A stretch of DNA of 51,346 nt from Denitrobaculum tricleocarpae (GTDB lineage Bacteria > Pseudomonadota > Alphaproteobacteria > Kiloniellales > Kiloniellaceae), in the NCBI RefSeq assembly GCF_007004665.1, contig NZ_ML660069.1:1-51346 (forward strand), written 5' to 3'. The notes under the pieces were generated by a model. The model made no database searches, was not told the DNA's origin, and saw only the letters and a list, made by a program, of their open reading frames with translations. Numbering within the stretch: the first letter of the stretch is position 1; every line of letters begins with the position of its first letter. Positions 5,430 through 34,114 of the stretch are shown piece by piece. The position numbers and the translations under genes were made by a program.

Positions 5430-5440
5430 TCAGGGCATCT

Positions 5441-28111: not shown

Positions 28112-29096
28112 CTGCTGGGCCATGAGCGAGGGCCATGCCGGCATGGAAGTCCCGGCGGTGGCGCTGGCACGGGCGCTGGGGTTGGAGCCCGAGATAAAGC
28201 GGGTGAAAATCCGCAAACCCTGGCGCTGGATACCACCGCGCTTTCTGCCCGCCCCCCTCTCCTATGCCGGACCCGATGGCGATGTGCTTGCACCGCCTTG
28301 GCCCGACGTCATCATCACCTGCGGCCGTCAGGCGGTCGCGCCCGCCGCGGAGATCCGCCGCCGCTCAGCCGGTCTGGCAGGGGCCAAGACCTTCGCCATC
28401 CATATCCAGAACCCCAGAGTGCCCTTCGGCTGGTTCGATGTGGTCGTCGCGCCGGAGCACGACCAAATCTCAGGCCCTAACGTCATCACCGGGCGCGGCA
28501 GCATCAACGGCATCACGCCGGAGCGCCTGGCCCAGGCGGCAGAGGAATTCGCCCCGCGTTATGCCGCTCTGCCCCGCCCCCTGATCGGCGTGATCATCGG
28601 CGGTGCCAACCGGGTCTATAAAATGGATGCCCCGGTGGTCGAGCGTCTGACAGCACAGCTGGCCGCGCTCGCCCGCGACAAGGGCGCCGGGCTGGCGGTC
28701 ACGACCTCCCGGCGAACCGGCGCTGCCAACGAGGCGATCCTGCGCGCCGGGCTGGCGGACACGGCAGCGGACATCTGGGACGGCACAGGCGCCAACCCCT
28801 ACTTCGGCATCCTGGCCCTGGCCGATAACCTGCTGGTGACCGGCGATTCCGTCAACATGGTCTCGGAAGCCGCAACCACGGGCAAGCCGGTCCAGGTGAT
28901 CGAGCTGGCGGGCGGTTCGGCCAAGTTCAAACGCTTCCACGACTCCCTGCGCAGGGACGGCATCACCCGCCCCTTCACCGGCGAACTGGAAAGCTGGAGC
29001 TACCCGCCCCTCAGCGAGACCGCCCGCATCGCCGAAGAGATCCGCACCCGGATGCCCGAGGCATTGCGGGCGCGGCTGAACCCCGGATCTTTGTGA
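28101..29096 (+). CDS. ELM1/DUF1022-family protein
   Basis: Member of the family named for plant mitochondrial fission protein ELM1, widespread in alphaproteobacteria, with a glycosyltransferase-like fold; bacterial function unknown. Recognisable segments are CWAMSEGHAGMEVPAVALARALG at the start, PRVPFGWFDVVVAPEHDQ, PLIGVIIGGANRVYKM, and TGDSVNMVSEAATTGKPVQV near the C-terminus. The frame is open from GTG 28050; GTG 28101 and ATG 28122 are other starts, and none has a good ribosome binding site. A 14-bp duplication at 28087-28111 seems to have put the ancestral ATG (28060) out of frame. Expression may be reduced. I use 28101 because it falls at the first conserved residues. Confidence 0.8.
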   Translation: MRATCWAMSEGHAGMEVPAVALARALGLEPEIKRVKIRKPWRWIPPRFLPAPLSYAGPDGDVLAPPWPDVIITCGRQAVAPAAEIRRRSAGLAGAKTFAIHIQNPRVPFGWFDVVVAPEHDQISGPNVITGRGSINGITPERLAQAAEEFAPRYAALPRPLIGVIIGGANRVYKMDAPVVERLTAQLAALARDKGAGLAVTTSRRTGAANEAILRAGLADTAADIWDGTGANPYFGILALADNLLVTGDSVNMVSEAATTGKPVQVIELAGGSAKFKRFHDSLRRDGITRPFTGELESWSYPPLSETARIAEEIRTRMPEALRARLNPGSL

Positions 29097-29128
29097 AGCC
29101 ATCCCCGCCACCGGATCTACCCGGCCTC

Positions 29129-29388
29129 CCCCCTGGCACGCAAAGAGCGACGGCAAGCTGATCCTGCACAACGGCAATGGCGAGCTGCTGGCCACCTGCG
29201 AAGTGCAGATCGCCTGCGGCGGGTCGTTGCTGCGGCGGGTGTAGGAGATGTTCGAGGCCGAGGAAGTGAAGGCCGCGGGCGGGGACGGTTACATGCTGAT
29301 CCGGGACGTGACCTGTAGGTTATTTGGGTATCATGGGCCGGTTAAGGGGGAGAGCGCGTTTAGCTTTGACCATATGTTTGGGTTTTAG
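29129..29388 (+). pseudogene. Decayed gene fragment with in-frame stop
   Basis: One frame reads protein-like on both sides of an in-frame TAG at 29242-29244: ILHNGNGELLATCEVQIACGG before it and FEAEEVKAAGGDGYMLIRDV then CRLFGYHGPVKGESAFSFDH after it, ending at TAG 29386. There is no start codon in context. I do not recognise the family. GC-rich codon use matches the chromosome, not the island that follows, so this looks like a chromosomal gene whose front was lost. Confidence 0.5.
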
Positions 29389-29551
29389 ACAGAACATCTA
29401 TAGACAAGCACTTGATATACGTAGAAAACGTGGGCACAGAATAGGTTACCCACACAAGGTTCGTTCATTAAGCAAACTTCGTATTGCACGCATAGGACTG
29501 AGTACGGTTTCCTGCTAAAATTGAACCATCTCTGAGGACGAAATAGTTCAA

Positions 29552-30634
29552 ATGTTGCAAGGACAAAACTTCGATTCTGATCTGGTGTTCCGATCTCTTG
29601 TCGAAAGTGGGTTTGAATTTCTTATCAAGTCTCTCAACGAGTTTGAAGCCAGCCCTAAATTCTCAACAGTTCATTTCGCTGCCGCATTAGAATTGTTCCT
29701 CAAAGCTCGCCTTATGAAAGAGCACTGGTCGCTTCTGGTTGAGAGATTGGATAAAGCGAACCCCGATGCTTTCGTTCAAGGACAATTGAAAACAATCACG
29801 CCCAACGCGGTTATGGAACGTCTAAACAGCATCTGTGCTGACCCAATTCCGGAAGCGGCTAGAAAGACCTTTCAAGAGATCGCACAACATAGGAACCGCA
29901 TGGTTCATTTCGTGCATGGAGTGGCAAAACCGCCTGAGCTAGCTCAAAAAGAAATTGATGACGTCGTAGCTGAACAGTGCAAAGGATGGATGCACCTGCA
30001 CCAGCTGCTTGTGGGTGGCTGGGCGCCGCACTTCGTGGATTTTGAGGTTAAGATCGCGGATGTCGAGACAATGATGCAGAGACATCGCGGATATCTCGAC
30101 GCTAAGTTTGGTTCTTTGGCGGAAACCATCAAGAAACATCTGGACGCTGGGCAAAGTGTTCGATCGTGCCATAGCTGCGGTTATCAAGCCTTATTGGTCG
30201 AGCCCGTCTCAGGTGCCATTTCAGCGGCATCGTGTCTCGTATGCTGGTATACTGGGTCATTCGTGTCCGTAGACTGCCCTGGCGAGAGATGCCATCAGCA
30301 AATCGAATTCGATTCCTACGTAGGTCCTCCGACGCATTGCCCCTCATGCGGCGCAACCATTATGGAATGGATATCAGAAGGTTTGGACACTGGCGATCCA
30401 GTCACGCCAGATAACTACTTTGACCATACCCCGATAAACTGTCCGCACTGCAATGGATATCATAGTGTGGTTGAACACCACGATGGCTATGTCTGCACTG
30501 AGTGCTTCGAGTATTCGGAGGAAGTTGGAACGTGCGGCTGGTGCAGTGAGGGACAGCTCGGAGGAGTGTCGGAAATGAGCCACTATAACGGCTGTGCATT
30601 TTGCGACGGCAGGGCGGGTTGGGACAGGGACTGA
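29552..30634 (+). CDS. HEPN-like protein with eight Cys-pair zinc-binding motifs
   Basis: A 360-residue protein I cannot assign to a named family. The N-terminal 150 residues are helical and include HFAAALELFLKARLM followed by QHRNRMVHF, where Arg114-X4-His119 matches the R-X4-6-H signature of HEPN RNases. The C-terminal half contains eight Cys pairs (206/209, 228/231, 242/247, 263/266, 297/300, 315/318, 328/331, 348/351), enough for four zinc ribbons, a pattern suited to nucleic acid binding. Composition is AT-richer than the chromosome. GAGGA lies 14 bases before ATG 29552. It precedes the Gp37/68-TcmP pair on the same strand, separated by 282 bases with a terminator-like hairpin. An RNase role is inference. 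Confidence 0.75.
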   Translation: MLQGQNFDSDLVFRSLVESGFEFLIKSLNEFEASPKFSTVHFAAALELFLKARLMKEHWSLLVERLDKANPDAFVQGQLKTITPNAVMERLNSICADPIPEAARKTFQEIAQHRNRMVHFVHGVAKPPELAQKEIDDVVAEQCKGWMHLHQLLVGGWAPHFVDFEVKIADVETMMQRHRGYLDAKFGSLAETIKKHLDAGQSVRSCHSCGYQALLVEPVSGAISAASCLVCWYTGSFVSVDCPGERCHQQIEFDSYVGPPTHCPSCGATIMEWISEGLDTGDPVTPDNYFDHTPINCPHCNGYHSVVEHHDGYVCTECFEYSEEVGTCGWCSEGQLGGVSEMSHYNGCAFCDGRAGWDRD

Positions 30635-30796
30635 AGTTTTAAAACACTTGAATTTGTGAATATCGAGACCGTCTCATTATATCTGCCCTATCCAAATGGC
30701 TTTGAACGTTTGTGACAAAAAGCAATCCACAAGAAACTGCACCAGTCAAATAGCAGCCAATCTCACTAAAACTGCTGAATAGCAAACCACCAGAAC

Positions 30797-30817
30797 ACTA
30801 CCATTCAAGGTAGTTTT
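30797..30817 (+). terminator. Weak terminator-like hairpin
   Basis: ACTACC-ATTCAA-GGTAGT followed by TTTCG, inside the gap between the HEPN-like gene and the Gp37/68 gene. The 6-bp stem and short T tract make it weak. If active it would separate the HEPN-like transcript from the following pair. The rest of the gap, 30635-30916, is AT-rich with no gene. Confidence 0.4.
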
Positions 30818-30916
30818 CGTATGAAAATCGTGCCATGGTTACAGTTACACTGAGTTTCTGTTGCTTAGCGTCTTCAAATTCCCCATAATGTTCTTGTTTT
30901 GTTCACGGATAAAAAT

Positions 30917-31684
30917 ATGGCACAGAACTCTGCAATCGAATGGACTAACGCAACGTGGAATCCAGTGACTGGCTGCACAAAGATTAGCGCGGGGTGTGAC
31001 AATTGTTACGCTGAGCGTTTCTCCGAGCGATTCCGTGGTGTTCCTAACCACCCCTTTGAGCACGGTTTTGACTTGATGCTTAGGCCTGAACGGATGGAGC
31101 AACCCCTCACTTGGAAAAAACCTAAAATGATTTTTGTGAACTCGATGAGCGATTTGTTCCACAAAAAGGTGCCCAACAGTTTTATTTCCGAAGTATTCGA
31201 AACAATGGAACGTGCGAACTGGCATGTGTTTCAAGTGTTGACAAAACGAAGTTCGCTCATGAAACGGTTCGTAAACACTCGCTATAGAGATAAGCCCGTA
31301 CCGAGTCACATATGGCTTGGTACATCTCTTGAAGATCACTCAAAACGTTCTCGAATCAAACACCTACAAGATACGAACGCTGAGGTGCGATTTCTGTCTA
31401 TCGAGCCGTTGATTGGGCCTCCAGGAGAACTTGATCTTTCAAAAATACGATGGGTGATCGTTGGAGGAGAAAGTGGTCCTTTCGCAAGACCGATGCAGCT
31501 ATCATGGGCTAGATCTGCGCGTGATCAGTGTACCGAGCAGGGCGTACCCTTCTTCTTCAAGCAATGGGGAGGTTTTAGACCTAAATCGGGTGGTCGTGAA
31601 TTGGATGGTCGTGAATGGAATGAGTTTCCCAAAGTATTAATAACTTCGAAAATGCCAGATCGGCAAATTATCGCTAGCGGTTAA
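30917..31684 (+). CDS. Phage Gp37/Gp68 family (DUF5131) three-Cys-motif protein
   Basis: The 255-residue product opens MAQNSAIEWTNATWNPVTGC, the hallmark start of the Gp37/Gp68 family, followed by the three-Cys motif CX6CX2C (Cys20, Cys27, Cys30; GCDNCYAERF), which resembles a radical-SAM-like iron-sulfur site. Further family blocks are IFVNSMSDLFHKKVP, VFQVLTKRSSLM, IWLGTSLED, RFLSIEPLIGP, WVIVGGESGP and FFKQWGG. Members are found in phages and genomic islands and their reaction is unknown. I start at ATG 30917; a TTG 18 bases earlier would add six residues. It ends 5 bases before tcmP. Confidence 0.9.
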   Translation: MAQNSAIEWTNATWNPVTGCTKISAGCDNCYAERFSERFRGVPNHPFEHGFDLMLRPERMEQPLTWKKPKMIFVNSMSDLFHKKVPNSFISEVFETMERANWHVFQVLTKRSSLMKRFVNTRYRDKPVPSHIWLGTSLEDHSKRSRIKHLQDTNAEVRFLSIEPLIGPPGELDLSKIRWVIVGGESGPFARPMQLSWARSARDQCTEQGVPFFFKQWGGFRPKSGGRELDGREWNEFPKVLITSKMPDRQIIASG

Positions 31685-31689
31685 GACTA

Positions 31690-32841
31690 ATGCTCGAACC
31701 TAGCGCTTATATCGATCGCGAACAGACTTACGTGAAGCACTTCGTCCTAGAAAAATATTTAGAGCGAGTTGCCTACAACATATTCTCATTTCAAACTGAC
31801 TTTACCTACGTAGATGGCTTTTCAGGGCCGTGGAAATCTGAGAACGAGCGCTACGAAGATACATCGTTTTTCATAGCAATTGCGCAGTTGCGAGCAGTGC
31901 GGTCGAATATAAAAGACAGCCGCAATAAGGACGTCAATTTTCGATGTATGTTCATCGAGAAAGCCCCGAAAGCGTTTCAAGAACTCGAAGAAACCGTTAG
32001 AAACATTCAAGATGTGCCTATTGAACTGATTCACGGATCCTTCGAAGATAACGTAAGCCGCATTAGTGAATTCGCGAAAACTTCTTTTTCTCTGATATTC
32101 ATTGACCCAACCGGCTGGCAAGGTTTCTCACTTGAAAAAATCACCCCTCTTTTGAATCTACGGGGAGAGGTTCTTATTAATTTTATGTCGAACTTTATTG
32201 TTCGATTTCTTGAAGATCCAAGACCCGAGATAGCTAGTTCTTTTGATAACCTGTTTGGGAAAAACTGGTTCTCTGAGTGGAGTCAACTGCACAGTAGCGG
32301 ATTGAGTAGGGAAGCTGCAGCAATCGAAGTATATACTCAACGGCTAAAGAGAGTAGGTAACTTTAAACACGTAACCTCCACTAGGATTCTGAAACCAAAA
32401 GCAGACCGCTCATATTTTTACCTAATATATGCAACGCAGCATTGGAAAGGTGTTCAAGAATTTCGGTCCGTTGAAAAGAAGGCAATTTATGAACAAGAGC
32501 GATTAAGAAATGCCGCAAAATATACAGCAGAGGTCGCAAAAACAGGCCAAAAGAGTCTTTTTGGAGAAGCTGTTATGGAAGCATCTAATAAGACATACGA
32601 AGCTGAACGAGAAACGCAGCTTGAACACGCAGAATCTAAACTGACTGAAGCTCTGCGAAGACATCCTGAAGGCATCAAATATGAAAAGCTGATTGGGATA
32701 ATTTTGGAGACGCCATTGGTTTGGGAAAGCGATCTAAAGAAATGGCTTTCCGACCTAAAGCAAAGCAACAAAGTTATGATTCCGGAGATGACCGGCAAAC
32801 AAAGAGTACCTAAGGTTGGGTATTTGATTTTGCCTACCTAA
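31690..32841 (+). CDS. tcmP: Three-Cys-motif partner protein TcmP
   Basis: TcmP proteins take their name from occurring beside three-Cys-motif proteins, exactly as here. The 383-residue product shows YVDGFSGPW (about 40-48), matching the usual YIDGFAGPG-type first motif, then CMFIEKAPKAFQELE, and FIDPTGWQGFSL (about 138-148), giving a class I SAM-methyltransferase-like layout with DPTG where DNA methyltransferases have DPPY. The C-terminal 120 residues are charged and helical. It starts 5 bases after the partner gene's stop, implying coupled translation. Codon use is AT-rich. Biochemical function is unknown. Confidence 0.88.
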   Translation: MLEPSAYIDREQTYVKHFVLEKYLERVAYNIFSFQTDFTYVDGFSGPWKSENERYEDTSFFIAIAQLRAVRSNIKDSRNKDVNFRCMFIEKAPKAFQELEETVRNIQDVPIELIHGSFEDNVSRISEFAKTSFSLIFIDPTGWQGFSLEKITPLLNLRGEVLINFMSNFIVRFLEDPRPEIASSFDNLFGKNWFSEWSQLHSSGLSREAAAIEVYTQRLKRVGNFKHVTSTRILKPKADRSYFYLIYATQHWKGVQEFRSVEKKAIYEQERLRNAAKYTAEVAKTGQKSLFGEAVMEASNKTYEAERETQLEHAESKLTEALRRHPEGIKYEKLIGIILETPLVWESDLKKWLSDLKQSNKVMIPEMTGKQRVPKVGYLILPT

Positions 32842-33037
32842 CAACAGCTTAAGCATGTAAGGAAATGGTGTCCGATCTAATAGTATTGCCCTGGCCTTGA
32901 GCCTGAAACCCGCCGCCGTTGGTTGGCCCCGTGCGCCCTTTGCCTAAAATACATCAGTAAGACCTCAAGACCTCCGATTCCTCCACAAAATAACGGCGAC
33001 AAACGGTAAAAGGCGTTCTCCCCCCGCAAATGCCGGA
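32842..33037. other. Right flank of the island
   Basis: About 200 bases between tcmP and the palindromic repeat. Composition rises back to chromosomal values from about 32890. One short stretch reads as protein-like residues (SNSIALALSLKPAAVGWPRA) without a start, perhaps a gene scrap. No attachment site, integrase or tRNA remnant is visible. Confidence 0.4.
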
Positions 33038-33135
33038 TTAGAGCAACTTGCGGTTAAGCTGCCTCAAAATTCGCTGCCCCTCAAAACGCAGATTGTGAGA
33101 AGCTTCACCATACGAGAAAACGCTAGCCGCTTCAG
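33038..33135. repeat. Short palindromic dispersed repeat, copy B (about 98 bp)
   Basis: TTAGAGCAACTTGCGG at the left and CGCTAGCCGCTTCAG at the right are rough inverted repeats. The left third aligns with the repeat at 5575-5691 through TAGAGCA, TTGCG, CTCA and AATTCGCTG. It sits between the Gp37/68-TcmP island and the K+ channel gene. Confidence 0.5.
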
Positions 33136-33172
33136 TACAAAGCACTCCATTCGCGAACCCGGGGGTTAAGCA

Positions 33173-34114
33173 ATGGGCCAGCTTCAGAGAACCATCCACG
33201 AAAAACTCGATCCGAGCGACAGGTCCGGTCCGATCAGCCGGGGACTGGATCTCTTTCTGATCGCGCTGATCGCCATCAACGTCGCGGCCGTTATCCTGGA
33301 GACCGTCGACAGCATCGAGACGCGGTTCCGCATGGCCTTCTGGGTGATCGAGGTCATCTCGGTGGCGGTCTTCAGCGTCGAATACGCCGCGCGGGTCTGG
33401 GCGAGCCCCGAAGATCCCGAGTTCCGGGACCGCAAACATCCCAGGCTGGCCTATATGACCTCGCCGTTGGCAATCATCGATCTGGTGGCCATTCTGCCGT
33501 TCTACCTGGGCTTTCTCGTGGACATGGACCTGCGGTTCCTGCGGGTGCTGCGCCTGCTGCGGATTCTCAAGCTGACCCGCTATTCGCCGGCCATGTCGAT
33601 GCTGCTGGATGTATTCCGGGAAGAAGCAAATGCCTTTCTCGCGGGCTTCTTCATCCTGATCGTTCTGCTGGTTCTGGCCGCGAGCGGGGCCTATCTGGCC
33701 GAACATCAGGTTCAGCCGGAGAAATTCGGCTCAATCCCCGAGGCGATGTGGTGGGCCATGGCCACGCTCACGACCGTGGGCTACGGCGATGTCGTGCCCA
33801 TTACAGCCGCCGGACAGATCTTCGGGTCCCTGGTCGGTGTCGTGGGCATCGGCATGGCTGCCCTGCCCGCCGGTATTCTGGCAAGCGGCCTGGCCGATCT
33901 CTTGCGCCGCCGGCGGGCGGCCCTGACCAAGCAGCTTCGCATCGCCCTGGAAGACGGCGTGATCGATGCGGACGAGGAACAGGAGCTCGAGGCGATGCGG
34001 CGTGAACTGGGGCTCAGCAAACGCATCGCCGAGGAAATCAGGGCGGATGTTCAGAAGTCACGCAGCGATAACCTCGTCGGCCAATGCCCCCATTGCGGCC
34101 GAAACCTGAACTGA
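33173..34114 (+). CDS. Voltage-gated potassium channel (Kv-type, six transmembrane helices)
   Basis: Inner-membrane K+ channel. The 313-residue protein has S1 (LDLFLIALIAINVAAVIL), S2 and S3, an S4 voltage sensor with regularly spaced Arg (RFLRVLRLLRILKL), S5, a pore loop with selectivity filter TTVGYGDV, and S6. The cytoplasmic tail (about 240-313) is charged and helical, and ends in CPHCGRNLN, a lone zinc-knuckle-like pair. The ORF start at 33173 gives MGQLQRTIHEKLDPSDRSG. It is monocistronic, followed by a G-rich hexamer repeat. Confidence 0.93.
   Translation: MGQLQRTIHEKLDPSDRSGPISRGLDLFLIALIAINVAAVILETVDSIETRFRMAFWVIEVISVAVFSVEYAARVWASPEDPEFRDRKHPRLAYMTSPLAIIDLVAILPFYLGFLVDMDLRFLRVLRLLRILKLTRYSPAMSMLLDVFREEANAFLAGFFILIVLLVLAASGAYLAEHQVQPEKFGSIPEAMWWAMATLTTVGYGDVVPITAAGQIFGSLVGVVGIGMAALPAGILASGLADLLRRRRAALTKQLRIALEDGVIDADEEQELEAMRRELGLSKRIAEEIRADVQKSRSDNLVGQCPHCGRNLN

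Follow-up and report, generated by a model that had tools for sequence, protein, structure and literature searches.

The closest described counterparts of the locus analyzed here were two defence candidates represented by models in PADLOC-DB 2.0. The first was HEC-08 (a 'Hma-embedded candidate'), which consisted of a single gene, and the second was PDC-M30/PDC-M41, which combined a DUF5131 (Gp37/Gp68) protein with a TcmP protein. It has been reported that several HEC candidates including HEC-06 were antiviral, and the accessible part of that paper did not say whether HEC-08 was among them (PMC12988326). HEC-08 was also named, in the available text of another study, as an enriched gene of a bioleaching community (PMC13407799). 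Pfam assigns no known function to DUF5131. Among the papers listed in the literature searches, none was a functional study of the DUF5131-TcmP pair, with subscription papers and preprints lying outside the search. The three genes considered here were located in a stretch of 51,346 nucleotides (hereafter the window) from Denitrobaculum tricleocarpae (contig NZ_ML660069.1). Namely, gene 1 (29552-30634, 360 amino acids (aa)) corresponded to HEC-08, gene 2 (30917-31684, 255 aa) to DUF5131 and gene 3 (31690-32841, 383 aa) to TcmP, all on the plus strand.

We concluded that this locus was real, foreign to its genome and worth testing, and that it represented two known candidates side by side, not a new three-gene system. 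With a probability of roughly 0.6, the foreign stretch carried two independent, already catalogued defence candidates, a single-gene HEPN RNase and a two-enzyme nucleic-acid-modifying module. The pair itself was most likely such a module, mobile and possibly defensive, beside the independent HEPN RNase. A preliminary description of this DNA had proposed that the three genes formed one undescribed module. Their open reading frames (ORFs) and common orientation were as it had described; its parts were already PADLOC-DB 2.0 models, and a joint module did not survive the neighbourhood check.

The three-gene module was rejected on the basis of linkage. Outside the window, we surveyed 98 HEC-08 loci from four collections (72 genome, 18 viral, 4 plasmid and 4 class loci, with 94 distinct motif-region sequences), examining flanks of 1.5 kb for the class, 8 kb for the plasmids, up to 6 kb for the viral loci and up to 10 kb for the genomes. 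Neither DUF5131 nor TcmP was present within 1 kb of HEC-08 at any of the 98 loci, 84 of which had at least 1 kb on each side. Profile searches of the examined flanks found DUF5131 at two loci, about 4.1 kb (L098) and about 8.5 kb (L103) away, and TcmP at one (L103). HEC-08 was uncommon, being found in 10 of 385 genomes of the same class and at full length in five of them (own genome included). Among these five, the pair was nearby in the window's genome only; in G301 a distance of 3.4 Mb separated the two, and DUF5131 was missing from the remaining three genomes. In the window, HEC-08 was the next gene 5' of the pair, as had been claimed, but it was not tightly coupled to it: a non-coding gap of 282 base pairs (bp; 30635..30916, plus strand) containing one terminator-like hairpin (30797-30814) separated them. 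The region had five terminator-like sites versus 2.8 +/- 1.4 expected from shuffles, and nothing in 29000-33200 reached the gathering threshold of Rfam.

Elsewhere, HEC-08 was located immediately 5' of HmaB, with zero gap, in 7 of the 65 loci with a called HEC-08 gene. This operon-like embedding in Hma was seen at L099, L100, L102, L103, L105, L109 and L115, where HEC-08 may have an accessory role in Hma. A crude gene caller found HEC-08 in 65 of 72 loci; these 65 gave a neighbour set of 119 proteins (those above 1,200 aa excluded), two of which were matched by the HmaA model. Other immediate neighbours, among the matches listed, corresponded to models of type II methyltransferases, DrmD, pAgo/SIR2 and BrxH. 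Among plasmid relatives, L013 was near Qat genes and L014 near an AbiJ-NTD4 gene; no such defence neighbour was found for L012 and L015. At E <= 1e-5, HEC-08 was present in none of 50,697 phage records, and it occurred in 18 IMG/VR loci. Since HEC-08 was seen beside HmaB and defence genes and not beside DUF5131, its sequence context makes it look like a gene that either stands alone or associates with Hma, and that often has defence genes around it.

According to its sequence, the product of gene 1 is a HEPN protein and the PADLOC single-gene candidate HEC-08, with an N-terminal HEPN domain and a C-terminal zinc-ribbon region (29552..30634, plus strand). It matched the HEC-08 model over nearly its full length (E 3.7e-86, residues 13-359 versus 16-357 of 358), and phrog_37794 as well (E 1.1e-53). 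Its N-terminal part matched the DUF3644 model of PADLOC (E 6.5e-43); the match to Pfam's own DUF3644 model was under the cut-off (E 0.093). DUF3644 has been listed as a HEPN family, and the RNase signature of HEPN has been given as Rx4-6H with a polar residue after the arginine, the second motif being Ex3[KR]; the same text, as far as accessible, cautioned that the Pfam DUF3644 model had wrongly taken in AbiJ-NTD2 sequences (PMC3710099). Gene 1 possessed both the catalytic motif R114-N115-x3-H119 (29891..29908, plus strand) and, upstream, the Ex3K motif E47-K51 (29690..29704, plus strand), invariant in all nine aligned proteins. RNxxxH was found at all 98 loci, a count that in part reflects the search itself, as the motif stretch was contained in one of the patterns used. 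The zinc-ribbon region (C206-C351; 30167..30604, plus strand) contained eight cysteine pairs, seven of the CX2C type and one of the CX4C type, with cysteine columns mostly invariant in the nine proteins, and weakly matched zinc ribbons of ribosomal proteins uS14/eS27. The R-X4-H motif (R114-H119), the eight cysteine pairs and the HEPN reading of this gene in the preliminary description all held.

The association of DUF5131 with TcmP, which had been called a recognised one, was borne out. Both components of PDC-M30/M41 matched at the locus, with the 5-bp gap noted earlier between genes 2 and 3. In the 385 genomes of the class, TcmP exceeded the cut-off for 29 genes in 28 genomes (own included), and 28 of these 29 had DUF5131 at a distance of no more than 2 kb; the remaining one started 138 bp from a contig end. 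Six TcmP matches below the cut-off had no DUF5131 nearby. On the other side, 57 DUF5131 genes were present in 53 of the 385 genomes, and 28 of the 57 were accompanied by TcmP. TcmP was downstream of DUF5131 on the same strand in 20 cases, upstream on the same strand in 5 and downstream on the opposite strand in 3. The paired state was clustered on a DUF5131 tree of 101 rows, with 16 changes versus a shuffled mean of 32.6, and none of 500 shuffles was as low. Therefore, pairing had been gained or lost repeatedly, and well-supported branches forced at least eight of the changes in a tree whose bootstrap was not fully settled and some of whose 'solo' rows were cut by contig ends. For DUF5131, the pairwise identity across 23 pairs had a median of 52.7%, compared with 23.1% for TcmP; at the sequence level, TcmP diverges fast relative to DUF5131.

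A side observation came from pSymA of S. meliloti 2011 (L309, NC_020527.1 1245605-1260354; 6953-12614), where two TcmP-profile matches came after one DUF5131 gene, the more distant of them lying on the other strand, with a large helicase gene next in order. The TcmP SMa2243 and the hna SMa2245 of S. meliloti were listed in the accessible part of a published work (PMC12445080), and therefore this helicase was probably hna. The pair and the helicase may represent one defence cluster.

The DUF5131 protein (30917..31684, plus strand) was assigned by Pfam, TIGR, PADLOC and fold comparison. It matched PF07505 with E 5e-97 (324.6 bits versus a curated cut-off of 28.9), PDC-M41B with E 1e-102 and PDC-M30B with E 3.8e-102. 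For TIGR04471, the radical S-adenosylmethionine (SAM) mobile pair protein A, the score was 69.8 bits (E 2.2e-19) versus an equivalog cut-off of 355. The AlphaFold2 model (predicted local distance difference test score 91.6) had a partial TIM barrel and was nearest to radical-SAM enzymes in the fold matches. The CX6CX2C motif reported earlier was present as C20-x6-C27-x2-C30 (30974..31006, plus strand), a putative [4Fe-4S] site. It was kept in 101 of 101 rows across whole ORFs, in 93 of them within the first 90 residues, and it aligned onto the CX3CX2C of mobile pair protein A with a 3-residue insertion. This suggests, from the alignment and the model, that the motif is an expanded radical-SAM cluster motif. 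Since gene 2 had CX6CX2C instead of the canonical CX3CX2C, we named the protein radical-SAM-like and not a canonical member of the superfamily. The earlier labels 'iron-sulfur-like' and 'methyltransferase-like' could in this way be sharpened to putative radical-SAM-like and RlmJ-like enzymes.

Membership of DUF5131 in the spore photoproduct lyase (SPL) family was rejected, given an hhalign probability of 0.1 for a shallow profile against three SPL-family proteins and the absence of PF20903 from the Pfam hits of gene 2; the SPL family was found in none of 31 relatives and in three of 190 class genomes. Searched as a single sequence, DUF5131 had no match up to E 10 among PDB sequences, and its profile gave five chance-level rows only. 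DUF5131 was widespread, being also present in 161 of 50,697 phage records, 403 of 72,556 plasmid records and at least 596 confirmed IMG/VR stretches. The alignments included 45 of 73 viral DUF5131 ORFs (A4) and excluded two partial L060 hits (A3). Among the matches listed, the closest DUF5131 (77% identity) was on L016 (3289-6455; IMG/VR contig 3300022665_001285), where a serine recombinase and a DUF2924 gene preceded it by about 370 bp, on a contig that ended inside DUF5131, before any TcmP. This arrangement hints at the type of element that moves the pair.

TcmP (31690..32841, plus strand) matched TIGR04474 with 146.7 bits (cut-off 53) and resembled the rRNA methyltransferase RlmJ in sequence and predicted fold. 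It had the Rossmann-like fold and motif I of class I SAM methyltransferases. The SAM-binding motif I, D42-G46 (DGFSG; 31813..31827, plus strand), aligned with YLDTHAGAGRY of RlmJ, and motif IV was D139-P-T-G (32104..32115, plus strand) where RlmJ had DPPY. In 23 rows, D42 and D139 were invariant and G46 and P140 were kept in at least 90%. The match to the PDC-M30/M41 component was weak (best E 2.2e-13), and we therefore considered this TcmP a divergent member. No relatives were found in a single-protein viral scan, and no PDB sequence matched the single sequence up to E 10.

The three genes are foreign to this genome and were acquired as a low-GC stretch. Nucleotide homology with the sister species G386 ended at 29386 and restarted at 32943 (about 91% identity on the left and about 88% on the right), and the match with the sister G385 likewise reached 29386. 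We therefore placed the foreign stretch at 29387..32942 (3,556 bp, GC 0.455, no strand assigned); the sister species lacked it at the corresponding place. These boundaries were sharper than the preliminary description had indicated. In G386 the two flanks were on separate contigs with different sequence past the break points, so that a clean empty site was not demonstrable there. As previously described, GC was lower than on both sides, with 0.504, 0.465 and 0.418 for genes 1 to 3 versus 0.678 (left) and 0.625 (right) for the flanking genes. The same step was seen at third codon positions (GC3), with 0.526, 0.445 and 0.404 versus 0.82 and 0.80. Among four genomes of the genus, HEC-08 and DUF5131 were each present in the window's own genome only, and DUF5131 was found in 7 of 23 genomes of the family (own included).

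At the left edge, the decayed chromosomal gene postulated earlier was present as a remnant with an in-frame stop (29095..29386, plus strand), 84% identical in nucleotides to the 3' end of an ORF that was intact in G385 (636 aa, L254:8470-10380). That protein had no Pfam match up to E 0.01, and the window kept its 3' end alone, directly abutting the foreign stretch. The palindromic repeat claimed for the right side was not recovered: perfect inverted repeats of at least 9 bp were absent from 32841-33170, and inverted arms in 32800-33180 were imperfect or 8-bp only, 62 to 235 bases apart. No integrase gene was found in the ORF list of the foreign stretch, no clear direct repeats flanked it and no tRNA was located at its edges, the sole tRNA of the window being at 5440. 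The adjacent flanking genes were ELM1 and an ion channel. The ion-channel gene (33173-34114) was 95% identical in G386 and 58% in G385 and had no close homologue in G387, and the right flank was therefore variable within the genus.

With respect to function, the RNxxxH site of HEC-08 would cut RNA, by analogy with the HEPN superfamily, and its zinc ribbons may bind nucleic acid or sense infection, the outcome probably being an abortive or RNA-cutting response. The three-cysteine motif of DUF5131 would carry a [4Fe-4S] cluster and the enzyme would generate a radical from SAM, and TcmP may bind a nucleic-acid target, methylate it, or both. From catalogue and context, we considered a defence role about as likely as not for the pair and somewhat more likely for HEC-08; the HEPN gene merits a test of its own, separate from the pair. 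A bolder proposal, which we thought unlikely, was that DUF5131-TcmP represents a new immune system. In this case, a radical-SAM enzyme with a cluster loop expanded by three residues would leave a radical-type modification (or lesion) on the nucleobases of foreign nucleic acid picked by a fast-diverging RlmJ-like partner, and the HEC-08 RNase would be an independent second line in this strain.

Several results weighed against reading the locus as two defence candidates with a radical-SAM-like module. Foldseek gave no match for DUF5131 at E <= 1e-3, and its top rows included TIM barrels outside the radical-SAM group. The DUF5131 profile, a shallow one, was unlike three SPL-family proteins by the hhalign value given above. 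TcmP had DPxG and lacked the DPPY of RlmJ. The PADLOC matches near the pair were equivocal and gave no enrichment figure: 110 neighbours of 20 pairs matched 79 families and 110 control proteins matched 2 families (3 matches in all); the families of the pair neighbours were, among the matches listed, represented by one protein each and mostly belonged to one candidate system. These sets covered 110 of 189 proteins for the pairs and 110 of 166 for the control, for which 5 of the 20 chosen stretches were nonexistent, one was only 375 bases long and another belonged to a genome that had not supplied any of the pairs. Some pair neighbours matched phage head, portal and integrase families, and phages commonly carried DUF5131 without TcmP, at some sites close to genes for DNA modification and recombination.

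The last two observations also favoured a tentative alternative, with odds well short of even, in which DUF5131-TcmP is a phage or mobile-element pair for DNA metabolism or counter-restriction that modifies the element's own nucleic acid and is kept as cargo, not for defence. The phage and IMG/VR counts of DUF5131 and the serine recombinase beside its nearest relative would fit this. Additionally, the examined neighbours of solo viral DUF5131 (146 of 213) included a few DNA methyltransferase, RusA, RecT and exonuclease VIII matches (one or two proteins per family among the matches listed), and in Erythrobacter phage R6L, according to the accessible text, a Gp37Gp68 gene came after exonuclease, ERF and SSB genes (PMC5463345). 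However, the foreign stretch of the window contained no phage genes, the pair was a PADLOC defence candidate and it adjoined a probable hna gene in S. meliloti. In a P. aeruginosa panel of 100 strains, PDC-M30 was also predicted for 32, and 68.8% of these 32 were phage-resistant; in the part of that source available, the PDC systems were termed putative, without experimental validation (PMC10855318).

It was likewise possible, though far from favoured, that TcmP is a catalytically dead methyltransferase fold whose sole role is to bind nucleic acid and so give DUF5131 its specificity; this would be a variant of the two-enzyme module and compatible with it. The replacement of DPPY by DPxG, the faster divergence of TcmP and the two TcmP-profile matches by one DUF5131 on pSymA pointed in this direction, but the invariant D42 and D139 and the nearly invariant G46 were as expected if SAM is still bound. 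Finally, a single module in which the HEPN RNase would be the effector and the pair would sense or modify, to which the co-orientation, common low GC and edges enclosing exactly these three genes had lent some appeal, was very improbable in view of the absence of DUF5131 within 1 kb of HEC-08 at the 98 loci surveyed, the 282-bp gap and the unequal GC3.

In comparison with known systems, TcmP differed from RlmJ (the 23S rRNA m6A2030 methyltransferase) in having DPxG for DPPY and in being tied to DUF5131, and DUF5131 differed from spore photoproduct lyase in lacking profile similarity to the three SPL-family proteins. Radical SAM mobile pair protein A shared 28% aligned identity with DUF5131, including the MSD, LTKR and EPL blocks and the aligned cysteine triad; it had CX3CX2C in place of CX6CX2C, and instead of TcmP it had a neighbour with the annotation radical SAM mobile pair protein B. 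HEC-08 of PADLOC was alike in its near full-length match and its conserved HEPN motifs and cysteine pairs. However, the window copy was not embedded in Hma, unlike the seven relatives directly before HmaB: HmaA, HmaB and HmaC were absent from the locus, and the foreign stretch contained the three described genes only. PDC-M30/PDC-M41 shared the same two adjacent families with the 5-base gap, and differed in that the window's TcmP matched weakly although its DUF5131 matched strongly. Thus, HEC-08 and PDC-M30/M41 were themselves already catalogued, and what was new here was the proposed radical-SAM and RlmJ-like reading of DUF5131-TcmP, which opens this large, so far uncharacterised pair to concrete testing by biochemistry.

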